Shown here one piece after another: positions 48,659 to 57,910 of a stretch of 64,000 bases of DNA. The DNA is taken from contig OV121092.1 of assembly GCA_921293015.1 (NCBI GenBank), forward strand, positions 35,037,764 through 35,101,763, in the 5' to 3' direction. The stretch comes from Phorcus lineatus. Taxonomy: Eukaryota; Mollusca; Gastropoda; Trochida; Trochidae. A program made the position numbers and the translations under genes. The notes under the pieces are model-generated. The model was not told where the DNA came from. It searched no databases and saw nothing but the letters and a program-made list of their open reading frames with translations. Every line of letters starts with the position of its first letter. Position 1 is the first letter of the stretch.

Positions 48659-48706
48659 ATGGCGGATTATCGTTATTTAGGTCTTTTGGCAGTTTCATGT
48701 TGGCAG
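48659..48706 (+). CDS. VOPP1/WBP1-like exon 1 (start, signal peptide)
   Basis: It encodes 16 residues, MADYRYLGLLAVSCWQ, and ends in phase 0 at CAG before gtgaga. This ATG was chosen because the two earlier ATGs hit stops within a few codons, while this frame joins exon 2 to complete a hydrophobic signal sequence. Confidence 0.8.
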
Positions 48707-51700
48707 GTGAGAATATTATTGTGATTATTAATGACTAACATGAATATTACATATGTTAAACCATTTCTGATATAAAAATCGGATAAATGATTAAGAATGA
48801 AACATGAAACGTTGTCATCAATCACTGCTTACACATTTATCACTGAACTGCTATTCTGTACATGCAAGATATATTACATTGGAAATAAAAACAGAATTTG
48901 TATATCTAAAACCAATATTAGATATATTATATATATACCTGCCTAGCATGGTTTTTTCTTACTCAGATATGCTTTGTTATGCTAAAAATCTTAATTGATA
49001 TCTTAATGCTCGCCCATCAATATTTTATATTAAAAGTGTTCATTTTTAAGTTTTAACATAAGACCAGCATAGAAATCTATTTTTAGATCATTATTGCCAG
49101 TTTTTTGAAAAACATGTCAAACCATAACAAACCTATTAAGATCCACCTTTTGCGAAATCGATAACTTTATCTCAAAGATTCTAATGTATCCCAAAACTGC
49201 TGAGCTATAGATTTCAAAACGCTTTTATAATTATATACTGAAGAAAACCGTTTCACAGCAAATGTGTACATTTCCCCAATTTGCGAATAAGAATTACCCA
49301 TGTACGAGTCTATTAAGGTAAAATAATCCAGTAAATGTCGACTTGAGAAATTTATCTTAACTTCCTTTAAAAGCTGGTTAATATAGATCATGAACGTTAG
49401 GCTGGCGAAAATAACTAGTCCAATTTCATTTGTTTTTTAATTTTTCACTATTTTTGTTAGAGTCAAACAAAATGACTATATAAACATATACACAAATCCA
49501 CAATTGGTTGTTACTATATTCCTTATGCTGACAAATTGAGTCTTTAAAAGTTTTGTAAAGAGTTAAAATGAAAATAATTTGACTGAGACAAAGAGGTGAT
49601 GTTTCTGAAAAAATATGTCACCACATTTCCACAAACCCTCTTATAATCATTATTTATAGAAAGAATTATCCTAAAGTAGCAAATCATTCAACTTTAAATC
49701 TATGATAAAAATCACGTTTCTCTACTTCAATTGTATTAGACGATTTCATCACAACACAAAAGATAAAGTTAACTTGTATTTCAGTACATTAGCTAGAAAC
49801 GACCAAAAGGCCCTTGAACTCTAGCTTTGTAGCTATCGCTGTCAACTTCGCTGTCAGTAAAACATCCCACAAAACTTGAGAAATTGTTTAAATTCATTTG
49901 CGATAAACACAGGCAGAGCTTATAAATAGACATTATGGAACCGTAAACAAAAGAAACATTAATCTGTCATTTCTGTAAAAGTTAACGAGAAAATAAAAAT
50001 GAATATTCAAAGACAGTTGGCATTTGGCCTTCCTTCAGAGACTTCAGTCAGAGACTAACTGAAACGAAAAAAATAAGACACTTTCAGTGGCACCGATACG
50101 AGTTTTCTAGCTGTGCGTAGGTTATGTTTGTTGTTTGTATTAGAACTCGCGTTGATTTTACATCTGCGTCATAAATTCAATATAATTTATTTCACATGAT
50201 ATTCACCATGTTGCATTTCTAACTTTCATCGATGTCTTCAATCGGAAGTAAAAGTTTCCAAATGATATTAATTGGATAAGCGAAAGGACTTTGCTTGTTG
50301 GCGACCTTGCTTACTTTAAGAAAATGCGTGTCGTATGTAATGAAGAACTCGCATTAATCTAAAATGAATGTCTTCAATCCTAAGTGATTTATTTCAAATT
50401 TGTTTTCCCTTCTTTAGCGAAACGACTTGGGGCGACGGTGCTAACGTTTTAAAAAAGGTTGTCCTTACGCGTTATAGATCTAGTTTCTCTTATTGACTTA
50501 ACATCTGCGTCTTAAATACGATGTGATTTATTTCACACGATATTCATTTGATTAGCGAAAAGAGACGTTATTTTCTGTCTTTTAAAACAAAATGTTTCGT
50601 ATGTGATGAAAAACTCATATAGATCTTACATCGTTATTTTTCATATTATATATCATATTCATTTGAGCAGCGAAAGCAAATTTGTTATGGTTAATTACTA
50701 TTTTAATATCTAATAAAATGTTTTTCGTATGCGTATGTCACATTAGACTTACATCGAATCTATCAGTTGCACATGATATTTTCACATAATTTACACTTGA
50801 TTAGCGAAACGAATTTAGTTTGAGACATTATTTACTTACATTTCTTTTAATGTGTGTCTTTATAGAACACAGAAATCATTTTAACTAACTTCGTCAACAA
50901 CTAAGTCATGTACTTTTATCACGCAACGTGCTCTTGATAAGCGAAACGGATTGGCTATGAGACGTTAGTTATTTTCATTTTGTCTATGTTTGATTTATCA
51001 TCAGGATACATCAAACATAATAAAACGTTTATCATTTAGATACATCAAACATAAGACATTCATCATTTGAATACATCAAACATAAAACATTCATCATTTG
51101 GAAAAATCAAACATAAGACATTTATCATTTTGATACATCAAACTTAAGACATTTAACATTTGGAAATATCAAACTTAAGACATTTATTATCTGCTATAGA
51201 TGTACGAAAGATTAAAAATTGTGAAAGAAGCAATAATGATATTGCTCCAAATTCATGCCTTTTGAATGATAATATTTTTCTAATGCTTCATCCTGTAAAC
51301 ACGTATTTGAATGTATATAGCAAAAAAGGTAAATCTATAACTTATCCTTGTAATCGTATTTGTCCCGTTGGTCTTTGGCCTTTCTACAAATAAAATATCT
51401 TGAATCTTGAATCTATAGATGTAAAATACATGCTAATTGACTTTTTTGTAGGCTTTGTTTATTGGAGTCACGGTAAACAAGCTGAAAACTTCATATGATA
51501 TTGCATGCAGATTTCATTTTATATTTGTAAAAAATATCTTATAAACCTCAAATGAATTTTTCATGAGCTATGCATCTGTAGTACAGTTGTTTTCGCATCA
51601 TCTAAAATAAATAAATAAACCAAATTCATAAAACAGGCTGAAATTTGAAAAATAAGTTAAGGCAGTTAATTTGTTAACAATTTAGACTCTTTATAAATGA

Positions 51701-57700: not shown

Positions 57701-57910
57701 GTCCACACTCCAACCTACCCCGGCCCCTTCATCGCCGTACCCACTGGAACCCCCGGACCCCCTGGACCCCCACCCCCATACTCAACGGCCCAGGATTACT
57801 CAGAGGATAAAAATCCGCCACCTGCAGGGCCCATGCAGCCAGGATACATGCCTGTAGGGTACCAAACCTGCACTTTTCAGGCAGACTTTGATAGCACACA
57901 TCTCTTCTAG
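48659..57910 (+). CDS. VOPP1/WBP1-like type I membrane protein, five coding exons
   Basis: The exons 48659-48706, 54201-54277, 56135-56212, 56880-57010 and 57684-57910 total 561 nt, exactly 186 codons plus stop, and all junctions are GT...AG with matching phase. Residues 1-22 form a signal peptide (YLGLLAVSCWQIALSAG). Residues 26-60 are a Cys-rich ectodomain with CCSGVCC. RLWYFW (62-67) leads into a transmembrane helix to about residue 84, followed by WYKKR, a stop-transfer signal. The tail is Pro-rich with a PPPPY motif that can bind WW domains. This order is that of VOPP1 and WBP1/WBP1L, small membrane proteins of endosomes and lysosomes; vertebrate VOPP1 is close in length (about 170 residues). 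Paralogue assignment is uncertain. The role is inferred from the family only. Confidence 0.85.
50998..51190. repeat. 31-bp tandem repeat, about six copies
   Basis: The unit is close to ATCATTTGGATACATCAAAC plus ATAAGACATTT. Copies drift toward the right, where a LINE fragment has inserted at the edge (51205). Confidence 0.88.
51205..51412 (+). mobile_element. 208-bp LINE 3' fragment
   Basis: It is flanked by a perfect 11-bp direct repeat, CTATAGATGTA (51194-51204 and 51413-51423). The right end has AAATAAAATATCTTGAATCTTGAAT, a signal-like AATAAA and a tandem TTGAATC tail, as expected for a LINE 3' end on the + strand. The short coding-like frame (to 51393) could be the last residues of its protein, but no motif proves it. 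This is a third tail type in the window. Confidence 0.75.
51858..52135 (-). mobile_element. tRNA-derived SINE, inverted copy
   Basis: On the minus strand it begins with GAGGTCCGGAGTTCAAATCCCGC (B-box-like GAGTTCAAATCC), runs through GTAAGGTTTGGGTGCAATG and GTTCGTTAGTTC, and ends GGCGGCGTTAAACCAAACTC. It has the same block order as 39264-39563 and lies within intron 1. Confidence 0.75.
52579..52635. other. Nested palindrome / hairpin in a GC-rich patch
   Basis: The inner arms CACGACAGAGTT (52595-52606) and AACTCTGTCGTG (52615-52626) are perfect complements around an 8-nt loop. The outer arms TTTGGAGT (52579-52586) and ACTCCAAA (52628-52635) are also perfect. It sits in a GC-richer stretch (52430-52830) that has a 194-codon minus-strand frame (53064-52480) without a known domain. 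The patch may be a decayed repeat or LTR-like sequence; it has an AATAAA at about 52691. Confidence 0.6.
53966..54015. repeat. (CCT)n and (CAT)n microsatellite
   Basis: CCTCCTCCT followed by about eight CAT units. It runs into the AAT/ATT repeat and lies in intron 1. Confidence 0.9.
54035..54191. repeat. Inverted (AAT)n/(ATT)n microsatellite at the exon 2 acceptor
   Basis: About 80 bp of AAT units, then about 74 bp of ATT units, form one large self-complementary block centred near 54119. Nine bases after it the acceptor TTGTCCTCAG meets exon 2. The repeat therefore replaces the usual branch-point and pyrimidine-tract region, leaving only TTTGTCCT as pyrimidine run. Confidence 0.9.
54201..54277 (+). 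CDS. VOPP1/WBP1-like exon 2
   Basis: Phase 0 in, phase 2 out. It encodes the end of the signal peptide and the start of the ectodomain (SKACTHNTYSLGQHRVIHY). The donor AG|GTCAGT was preferred over an earlier CGG|GTAATT at 54263, because only the former keeps the next exon in frame. Confidence 0.8.
55553..55760. repeat. Dispersed repeat sharing a core with 60480-60710
   Basis: It contains GTGTTCACACAAAAATGGCC and a left edge TTTTTAAGGGACAGTGATCACGG, which resembles a TTAA-MITE end. The core recurs inverted at about 60535-60575. It lies in intron 2. Confidence 0.5.
56135..56212 (+). CDS. VOPP1/WBP1-like exon 3 (Cys-rich, RLWYFW)
   Basis: The acceptor is TTATCCTGCAG and the donor TG|GTAAGA. 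It encodes CHNWEYCCSGVCCDYPVLIH followed by RLWYFW, the family signature just before the membrane helix. The CC...CC pattern is likely disulfide-bonded in the lumen. Confidence 0.9.
56880..57010 (+). CDS. VOPP1/WBP1-like exon 4 (transmembrane helix)
   Basis: The acceptor is AAATTTCAG. It encodes VGILSLAFFLLFASV then TWYKKRYYG, a helix followed by basic residues on the cytosolic side. The donor ACACAG|GTCTAC is a weaker consensus, chosen because it gives phase 1 into the last exon. The end of this exon is the least certain boundary in the gene. Confidence 0.82.
57684..57910 (+). CDS. VOPP1/WBP1-like exon 5 (PY-motif tail, stop)
   Basis: The acceptor is CCCTGTTTTTCAG. It encodes a Pro-rich tail with TPGPPGPPPPYSTAQ, containing one PPxY motif for WW-domain proteins such as NEDD4-type ligases or WWOX, then DFDSTHLF and TAG. 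It is more GC-rich than its surroundings, as expected of an exon. Confidence 0.88.

Follow-up and report, generated by a model that had tools for sequence, protein, structure and literature searches.

The window analyzed here, a stretch of 64,000 nucleotides (nt) from the gastropod Phorcus lineatus (G000:C19:35037764-35101763; genome assembly of 958 megabases (Mb) in 74 contigs), carries a five-exon gene on its forward strand between positions 48659 and 57910. The gene specifies a protein of 186 amino acids with a signal-peptide-like N-terminus, a cysteine-rich ectodomain, one predicted transmembrane helix, and a proline-rich tail. Its sequence makes it very probable that the gene is genuine and encodes a protein of the Shisa-like STMC6 superfamily, within the VOPP1-like branch. 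The STMC6 concept reportedly originates with Pei and Grishin in 2012. The exons had been joined by eye from splice signals, reading phases, and motifs, and the original prediction assigned the product to the VOPP1/WBP1 family. The coding exons are as follows.

48659..48706, forward strand: coding exon 1 (48 nt), with the start codon and signal-peptide-like stretch, ending in phase 0; donor ranked 1 of 474; the least supported exon
54201..54277, forward strand: coding exon 2 (77 nt), phase 0 to 2, carrying the first cysteine of the ectodomain; donor ranked 2 of 474
56135..56212, forward strand: coding exon 3 (78 nt), encoding C-x5-CC-x3-CC-x8-LWYF, phase 2 to 2; similar to VOPP1 and to two paralogues
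56880..57010, forward strand: coding exon 4 (131 nt), with the transmembrane helix, the basic juxtamembrane segment, and YGRI, ending in phase 1 with a weak donor
57684..57910, forward strand: coding exon 5 (227 nt), with the proline-rich tail, PPPPY, and the stop codon TAG

The predicted exon coordinates are exact, and no exon exceeds the predicted limit of 230 base pairs. Spliced together, the five exons give a coding sequence of 561 nt, which is precisely the 186 codons plus stop that had been claimed. All four introns (5494, 1857, 667, and 673 nt) begin with GT and end with AG, and their phases of 0, 2, 2, and 1 are correct. Splice sites were scored with approximate matrices, using thresholds of our own, and ranked among the 474 GTs and 410 AGs at positions 48600-58000. 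The donors of exons 1-4 rank 1, 2, 4, and 82, and the acceptors of the four introns, in order, rank 16, 1, 54, and 23. Between positions 47000 and 56050, seven models combine an exon 1 and an exon 2 that clear the thresholds and continue into exon 3 in the correct frame without a stop. The predicted pair has the highest splice score of the seven and is the only one to combine a signal-like hydrophobic stretch with a single further cysteine.

The guanine-plus-cytosine (GC) content of the spliced coding sequence is 0.519, compared with 0.32-0.35 in the introns. It is raised in exons 2, 4, and 5. The value of exon 5 is exceptional, being attained by 105 of 62,082 equal-length stretches of the window, and that of exon 4 is attained by 494 of 62,658. 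The GC content of exon 3 is only mildly raised (3,931 of 62,976 stretches). For exon 1, base composition is uninformative because 12,460 of 63,156 stretches reach its ordinary value.

The encoded protein displays the cysteine and boundary pattern C-x16-C-x5-CC-x3-CC-x8-LWYFW. Six cysteines (C26, C43, CC49-50, and CC54-55) lie between the N-terminal hydrophobic stretch and the helix and form the arrangement C*C*CC*CC. The ectodomain had been described as CC-x-CC; the paired cysteines are present, but the spacer between them is three residues (CC-x3-CC). RLWYFW, another predicted motif, stands at the start of the helix and occurs once in the six frames of the window, as do C.....CC...CC and PPPPY. 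The shorter motifs PP.Y and CC...CC are less telling, since they occur 7 and 3 times, respectively, in the same frames. The single membrane helix that had been proposed is borne out by a hydropathy of 2.02 over residues 67-85, followed by the basic sequence YKKR; the second-highest 19-residue hydropathy peak is the N-terminus, at 1.16. PPPPY was also correctly placed in the proline-rich tail, where the only PY motif of the protein spans residues 141-144. YGRI, a sequence of the YxxPhi type, occupies residues 91-94, six residues past the helix and 23 after WYFW.

According to two papers, Shisa-like proteins have a short luminal part with the pattern C*C*CC*CC, a single helix, an aromatic motif, and PY motifs as their marks (PMC5578492, PMC6991692). 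The first of these papers counts VOPP1 and WBP1 among the Shisa-like proteins and names the aromatic motif at the helix start as one of their features (PMC5578492). The sequences of WBP1L, CYYR1, and human VOPP1 used here were provisional versions, on which all comparisons with these proteins rest. The three PY motifs of this VOPP1 version fall at 116, 154, and 162, the positions printed in PMC6300487.

When human VOPP1 was compared with the bare window, the best match was exon 3, with 39.7 bits and an expect value (E) of 1e-6; weaker matches lay outside exon 3 (E 0.12) and on exon 5 (E 0.16). The best match of VOPP1 to 100 dinucleotide-shuffled windows reached 28.1 bits, and none attained 39.7. 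In a two-sequence comparison by blastp, the spliced protein matched human VOPP1 with E 4e-10 (32.8% over 61 residues), or E 2e-8 with the low-complexity filter. The alignment scores to VOPP1 were 118 for the whole protein and 96 for the ectodomain plus helix, each attained by 0 of 1000 shuffles. Scores to WBP1L were 76 for the whole protein (attained by 0 of 1000 shuffles) and 62 for the ectodomain plus helix (4 of 1000). The corresponding scores to CYYR1 were 60 (2 of 1000) and 44 (10 of 1000). The blastp match and the shuffles support the VOPP1/WBP1 family of the original prediction, and the spacing C-x5-CC-x3-CC-x8-LWYFW agrees with VOPP1 and not with WBP1L. The PDB sequences gave two matches to the spliced protein, the better with E 0.16. 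In a literature search on VOPP1 in molluscs, VOPP1 appeared in none of the matches listed.

Two relatives were found on the same chromosome. The genome was queried with the exon 3 stretches of the window gene and of the relative at 26.9 Mb, so that the total of three is a minimum. The 26 residues of window exon 3 gave three matches, namely the window itself, one on C17, and one at C19:26910022, the last being weak by its E-value (1.71). The C17 match (E 1.29) was rejected as a chance match, with a stop inside and no CC pairs in the matched frame. Exon 3 of the 26.9-Mb gene gave two matches, itself and C19:10707616 (E 4.58). The two relatives are as follows.

G000:C19:26909116-26911296: the 26.9-Mb gene, exons 26909116-26909168, 26910012-26910089, 26910427-26910563, and 26911118-26911296
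G000:C19:10707615-10710034: third STMC6-like gene, exon 3 at 10707615-10707692 and a membrane exon candidate at 10708158; model incomplete

In the 26.9-Mb gene, exon 3 has 78 nt and phases 2/2; a membrane exon comes next, and the tail contains LPPY, PPPY, and PPLY. Its candidate exon 2 has 53 nt, one cysteine, and the same phases as window exon 2. The end of its exon 4 (137 nt) was selected to fit phase 1 and is therefore not independent evidence. No convincing exon 1 was found within about 19 kilobases upstream, where strict limits returned none; one AT-rich candidate obtained under relaxed limits was set aside as implausible. Exon 3 of the third gene also has 78 nt with the same borders, and its tail frame, which contains PPPPY...PPSY, ends at 10710034; an exon 2 candidate was looked for and not found. 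Because three genes on C19 share the exon border and phase, the splice sites of exon 3 in the window are strongly supported. At least three STMC6 genes, the window gene among them, thus lie on this chromosome, and further copies may exist.

Several observations weigh against the gene model or the VOPP1-like assignment. Pfam yields no significant match to the spliced protein, and WBP-1 (PF11669) does not match the whole protein at all; NCBIfam yields no match either. A Rieske match in Pfam (E 0.42) was discarded as chance. On residues 42-105, WBP-1 scores 10.9 bits (E 0.75), below its cut-off of 28.1. The original prediction had named a profile search that shows no relation to WBP1/VOPP1 as a refutation, and taken literally the Pfam outcome is of that kind. 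However, Pfam cannot decide the family, because human VOPP1 (17 bits) is itself below the WBP-1 cut-off, as is the 26.9-Mb paralogue (15.9 bits). No Pfam-A model exceeds its own cut-off for any of these three proteins of the VOPP1 branch. Pfam does recognize WBP1L and CYYR1. The tail alone scores against VOPP1 no better than 280 of 1000 shuffles, and tail similarity was dropped as family evidence for this reason. The window protein has one PY motif, whereas human VOPP1 and the 26.9-Mb copy have three each. The only cytoplasmic YxxPhi motif of human VOPP1 lies at 165, which is not the place of YGRI in the window protein. The signal-peptide-like stretch was judged by hydropathy only (1.91 over residues 9-19), and the exon 4 donor, CAG/gtctac, is weak (rank 82, score -1.86). 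Searches with residues 42-101 gave 46 pattern matches in viral_contigs and 472 in genome_contigs, with 0 confirmed, as expected for an animal gene. The PDB sequences gave two matches to the spliced protein, the better with E 0.16. In a literature search on VOPP1 in molluscs, VOPP1 appeared in none of the matches listed.

It is rather unlikely that the same gene is transcribed in another form. Such a transcript would have a different first exon, an exon 4 extended by 87 or 96 nt, or a retained intron 4 and no PY tail. Support for exon 1 comes from its splice donor, hydrophobic character, and promoter-like setting, with no contribution from similarity or GC content. Two phase-1 donors, at 57098 (-0.65) and 57107 (-1.54), slightly outscore the donor that the model uses for exon 4. 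The exon 4 frame is also open into intron 4 (56880-57123), and a retained-intron product would lose the PPPPY tail. The model is favored by the donors of exons 1 and 2, which are the best and second best of all GTs ranked, and by its place at the top of the seven combinations. In addition, the exon 4 of the 26.9-Mb paralogue, whose 137 nt reflect an end chosen for phase, is close to the short form of 131 nt.

A comparable degree of doubt attaches to orthology. The window gene could be the actual orthologue of VOPP1, with the 26.9-Mb copy as a derived one, or both could be co-orthologues, and the spacing C-x5-CC-x3-CC-x8-LWYFW common to the two genes is consistent with either arrangement. Both arrangements appear unlikely, since the 26.9-Mb copy is nearer to VOPP1 (56.2 vs. 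42.4 bits for the window gene; core score 129 vs. 100) and resembles it in its C-x12-C spacing and three PY motifs. Given the closer match of the 26.9-Mb copy to human VOPP1, the name VOPP1-like suits the window gene best. It is probably a divergent paralogue, more divergent than the 26.9-Mb copy.

It is quite improbable that the window gene is a decayed or unexpressed duplicate. Its divergent tail, single PY motif, weak exon 4 donor, and the long AT palindrome close to the acceptor of exon 2 would suit a pseudogene, but its 186 codons run without a stop or frameshift, GT-AG is intact at all four introns, exon 3 is conserved, and GC content is raised in exons 2, 4, and 5. Chance assembly of open stretches where no gene exists, for which short exons give by-eye joining much freedom, has almost no probability left, given that none of the 100 shuffled windows matches VOPP1 equally well and that the same exon recurs in two other C19 genes, two findings that bear on exon 3.

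Three further elements lie next to the coding exons of the VOPP1-like gene.

48612..48619, forward strand: TCACGTGA palindrome, candidate promoter element; two in the window, 0.73 expected
48632..48642, forward strand: AAGATGGCGGC, YY1-like motif; one exact copy in the window
54041..54191, forward strand: near-perfect (AAT)n(ATT)n palindrome of 151 nt, with two 75-nt arms of 99% complementarity; its end lies 9 nt upstream of exon 2

TCACGTGA is an E-box of the kind that MiT/TFE factors recognize. Its number is not significant, as 17 of 100 shuffles hold at least two, and it is notable by its place only. A literature search for a link between VOPP1 and TFEB returned no paper on that link by title, and the site therefore stays a remark. 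AAGATGGCGGC is a YY1-like motif, of a kind often found shortly after the transcription start of animal genes. If one mismatch is tolerated, 0.23 copies are expected and 22 of 100 shuffles hold at least one, so that it too is not significant by number. An upstream frame, MAAK* (four codons, 48632-48649), begins inside AAGATGGCGGC and is in frame with the main start.

As RNA, the intron 1 palindrome is predicted to fold into a hairpin of -98.3 kcal/mol (z -16.2; 0 of 200 shuffles). Skipping of exon 2 would shift the frame and yield a 29-residue peptide. In the pre-mRNA, the hairpin might switch exon 2 inclusion depending on its length, a highly speculative proposal with little chance of being correct; if true, microsatellite length would tune the output of the window gene between individuals. 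Intron 1 also contains one copy of a dispersed repeat (51857-52068), and a second copy lies downstream of the gene (61136-61345) in the opposite orientation; the two are 78-83% complementary.

Elsewhere in the window, the remnant of a retroelement of the long interspersed nuclear element (LINE) type occupies several frames at 41306-44612 on the reverse strand, with endonuclease (PF14529) and reverse transcriptase (PF00078) domains. A third frame of this remnant (41306-42319) has no significant Pfam match. Another LINE-type element is represented by a 604-codon frame at 19425-21239 on the reverse strand, which matches reverse transcriptase (PF00078) and, weakly, zf-RVT. A tandem array of 10.5 copies of a 26-bp unit fills positions 1-272, starting at the first base of the window. 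Rfam at gathering scores and ARAGORN found no match in the window, and Pfam found no family at E 0.01 in the six frames of 49001-64000, with stops read as X.

Functions described for two relatives offer a model for the window protein. One study states that VOPP1 binds WWOX through PPPY165 and is located on late endosomes and lysosomes, where it holds WWOX (PMC6169085). For WBP1L, another describes binding to NEDD4-family ligases through [L/P]PxY and changes in receptor ubiquitination (PMC6991692). By analogy, the window protein would be a type I single-pass membrane adaptor from which the signal peptide is removed. Its six cysteines may form a small disulphide-bonded luminal knob. YGRI could direct sorting to late endosomes or lysosomes; YxxPhi motifs are common by chance. 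The single PPPY site would dock WW-domain proteins, either WWOX or NEDD4-type ubiquitin ligases, which might then be sequestered or brought to membrane cargo. This adaptor mechanism is reasonably plausible and somewhat favored.

The window gene illustrates that a complete gene can be recovered by eye from its splice signals, phases, and motifs although none of its coding exons exceeds 227 base pairs and Pfam does not recognize the protein. For the family, the gain is a set of three STMC6 genes on a single chromosome that share the conserved 78-nt exon, and this exon is a useful anchor to sort VOPP1 from WBP1 lineages. The window gene is otherwise an ordinary small animal gene.

Among known systems, CYYR1 and the Shisa proteins, the latter as described in the papers cited above, share with the window protein a short cysteine-rich ectodomain, one helix, and a PPxY tail; CYYR1, in the version used here, lacks the LWYFW boundary. 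WBP1 and WBP1L (OPAL1) have in common with it C*C*CC*CC, the aromatic boundary, one helix, and PY motifs, but the WBP1L version used here differs in having CC-x4-CC and LWWFW. The third gene on C19 resembles the window gene in its 78-nt exon 3 with the same borders, its membrane exon candidate, and its tail with PPPPY and PPSY, and differs from it in CC-x4-CC and in the seven residues ahead of LWYFW. The 26.9-Mb copy (44.3 bits) is alike in the 78-nt exon 3, phases 2/2, the membrane boundary, and the YxxPhi motif, with YHKL in the same place as YGRI, 23 residues after WYFW. Unlike the window gene, it has an exon 2 of 53 nt, C-x12-C as in VOPP1, and three PY motifs. Human VOPP1, with 172 amino acids against 186, shares with the window protein C-x5-CC-x3-CC-x8-LWYFW, one helix, and a proline-rich PY tail, and the first two ectodomain cysteines are separated by 12 residues in its sequence (C26-C39) and by 16 in the window protein.

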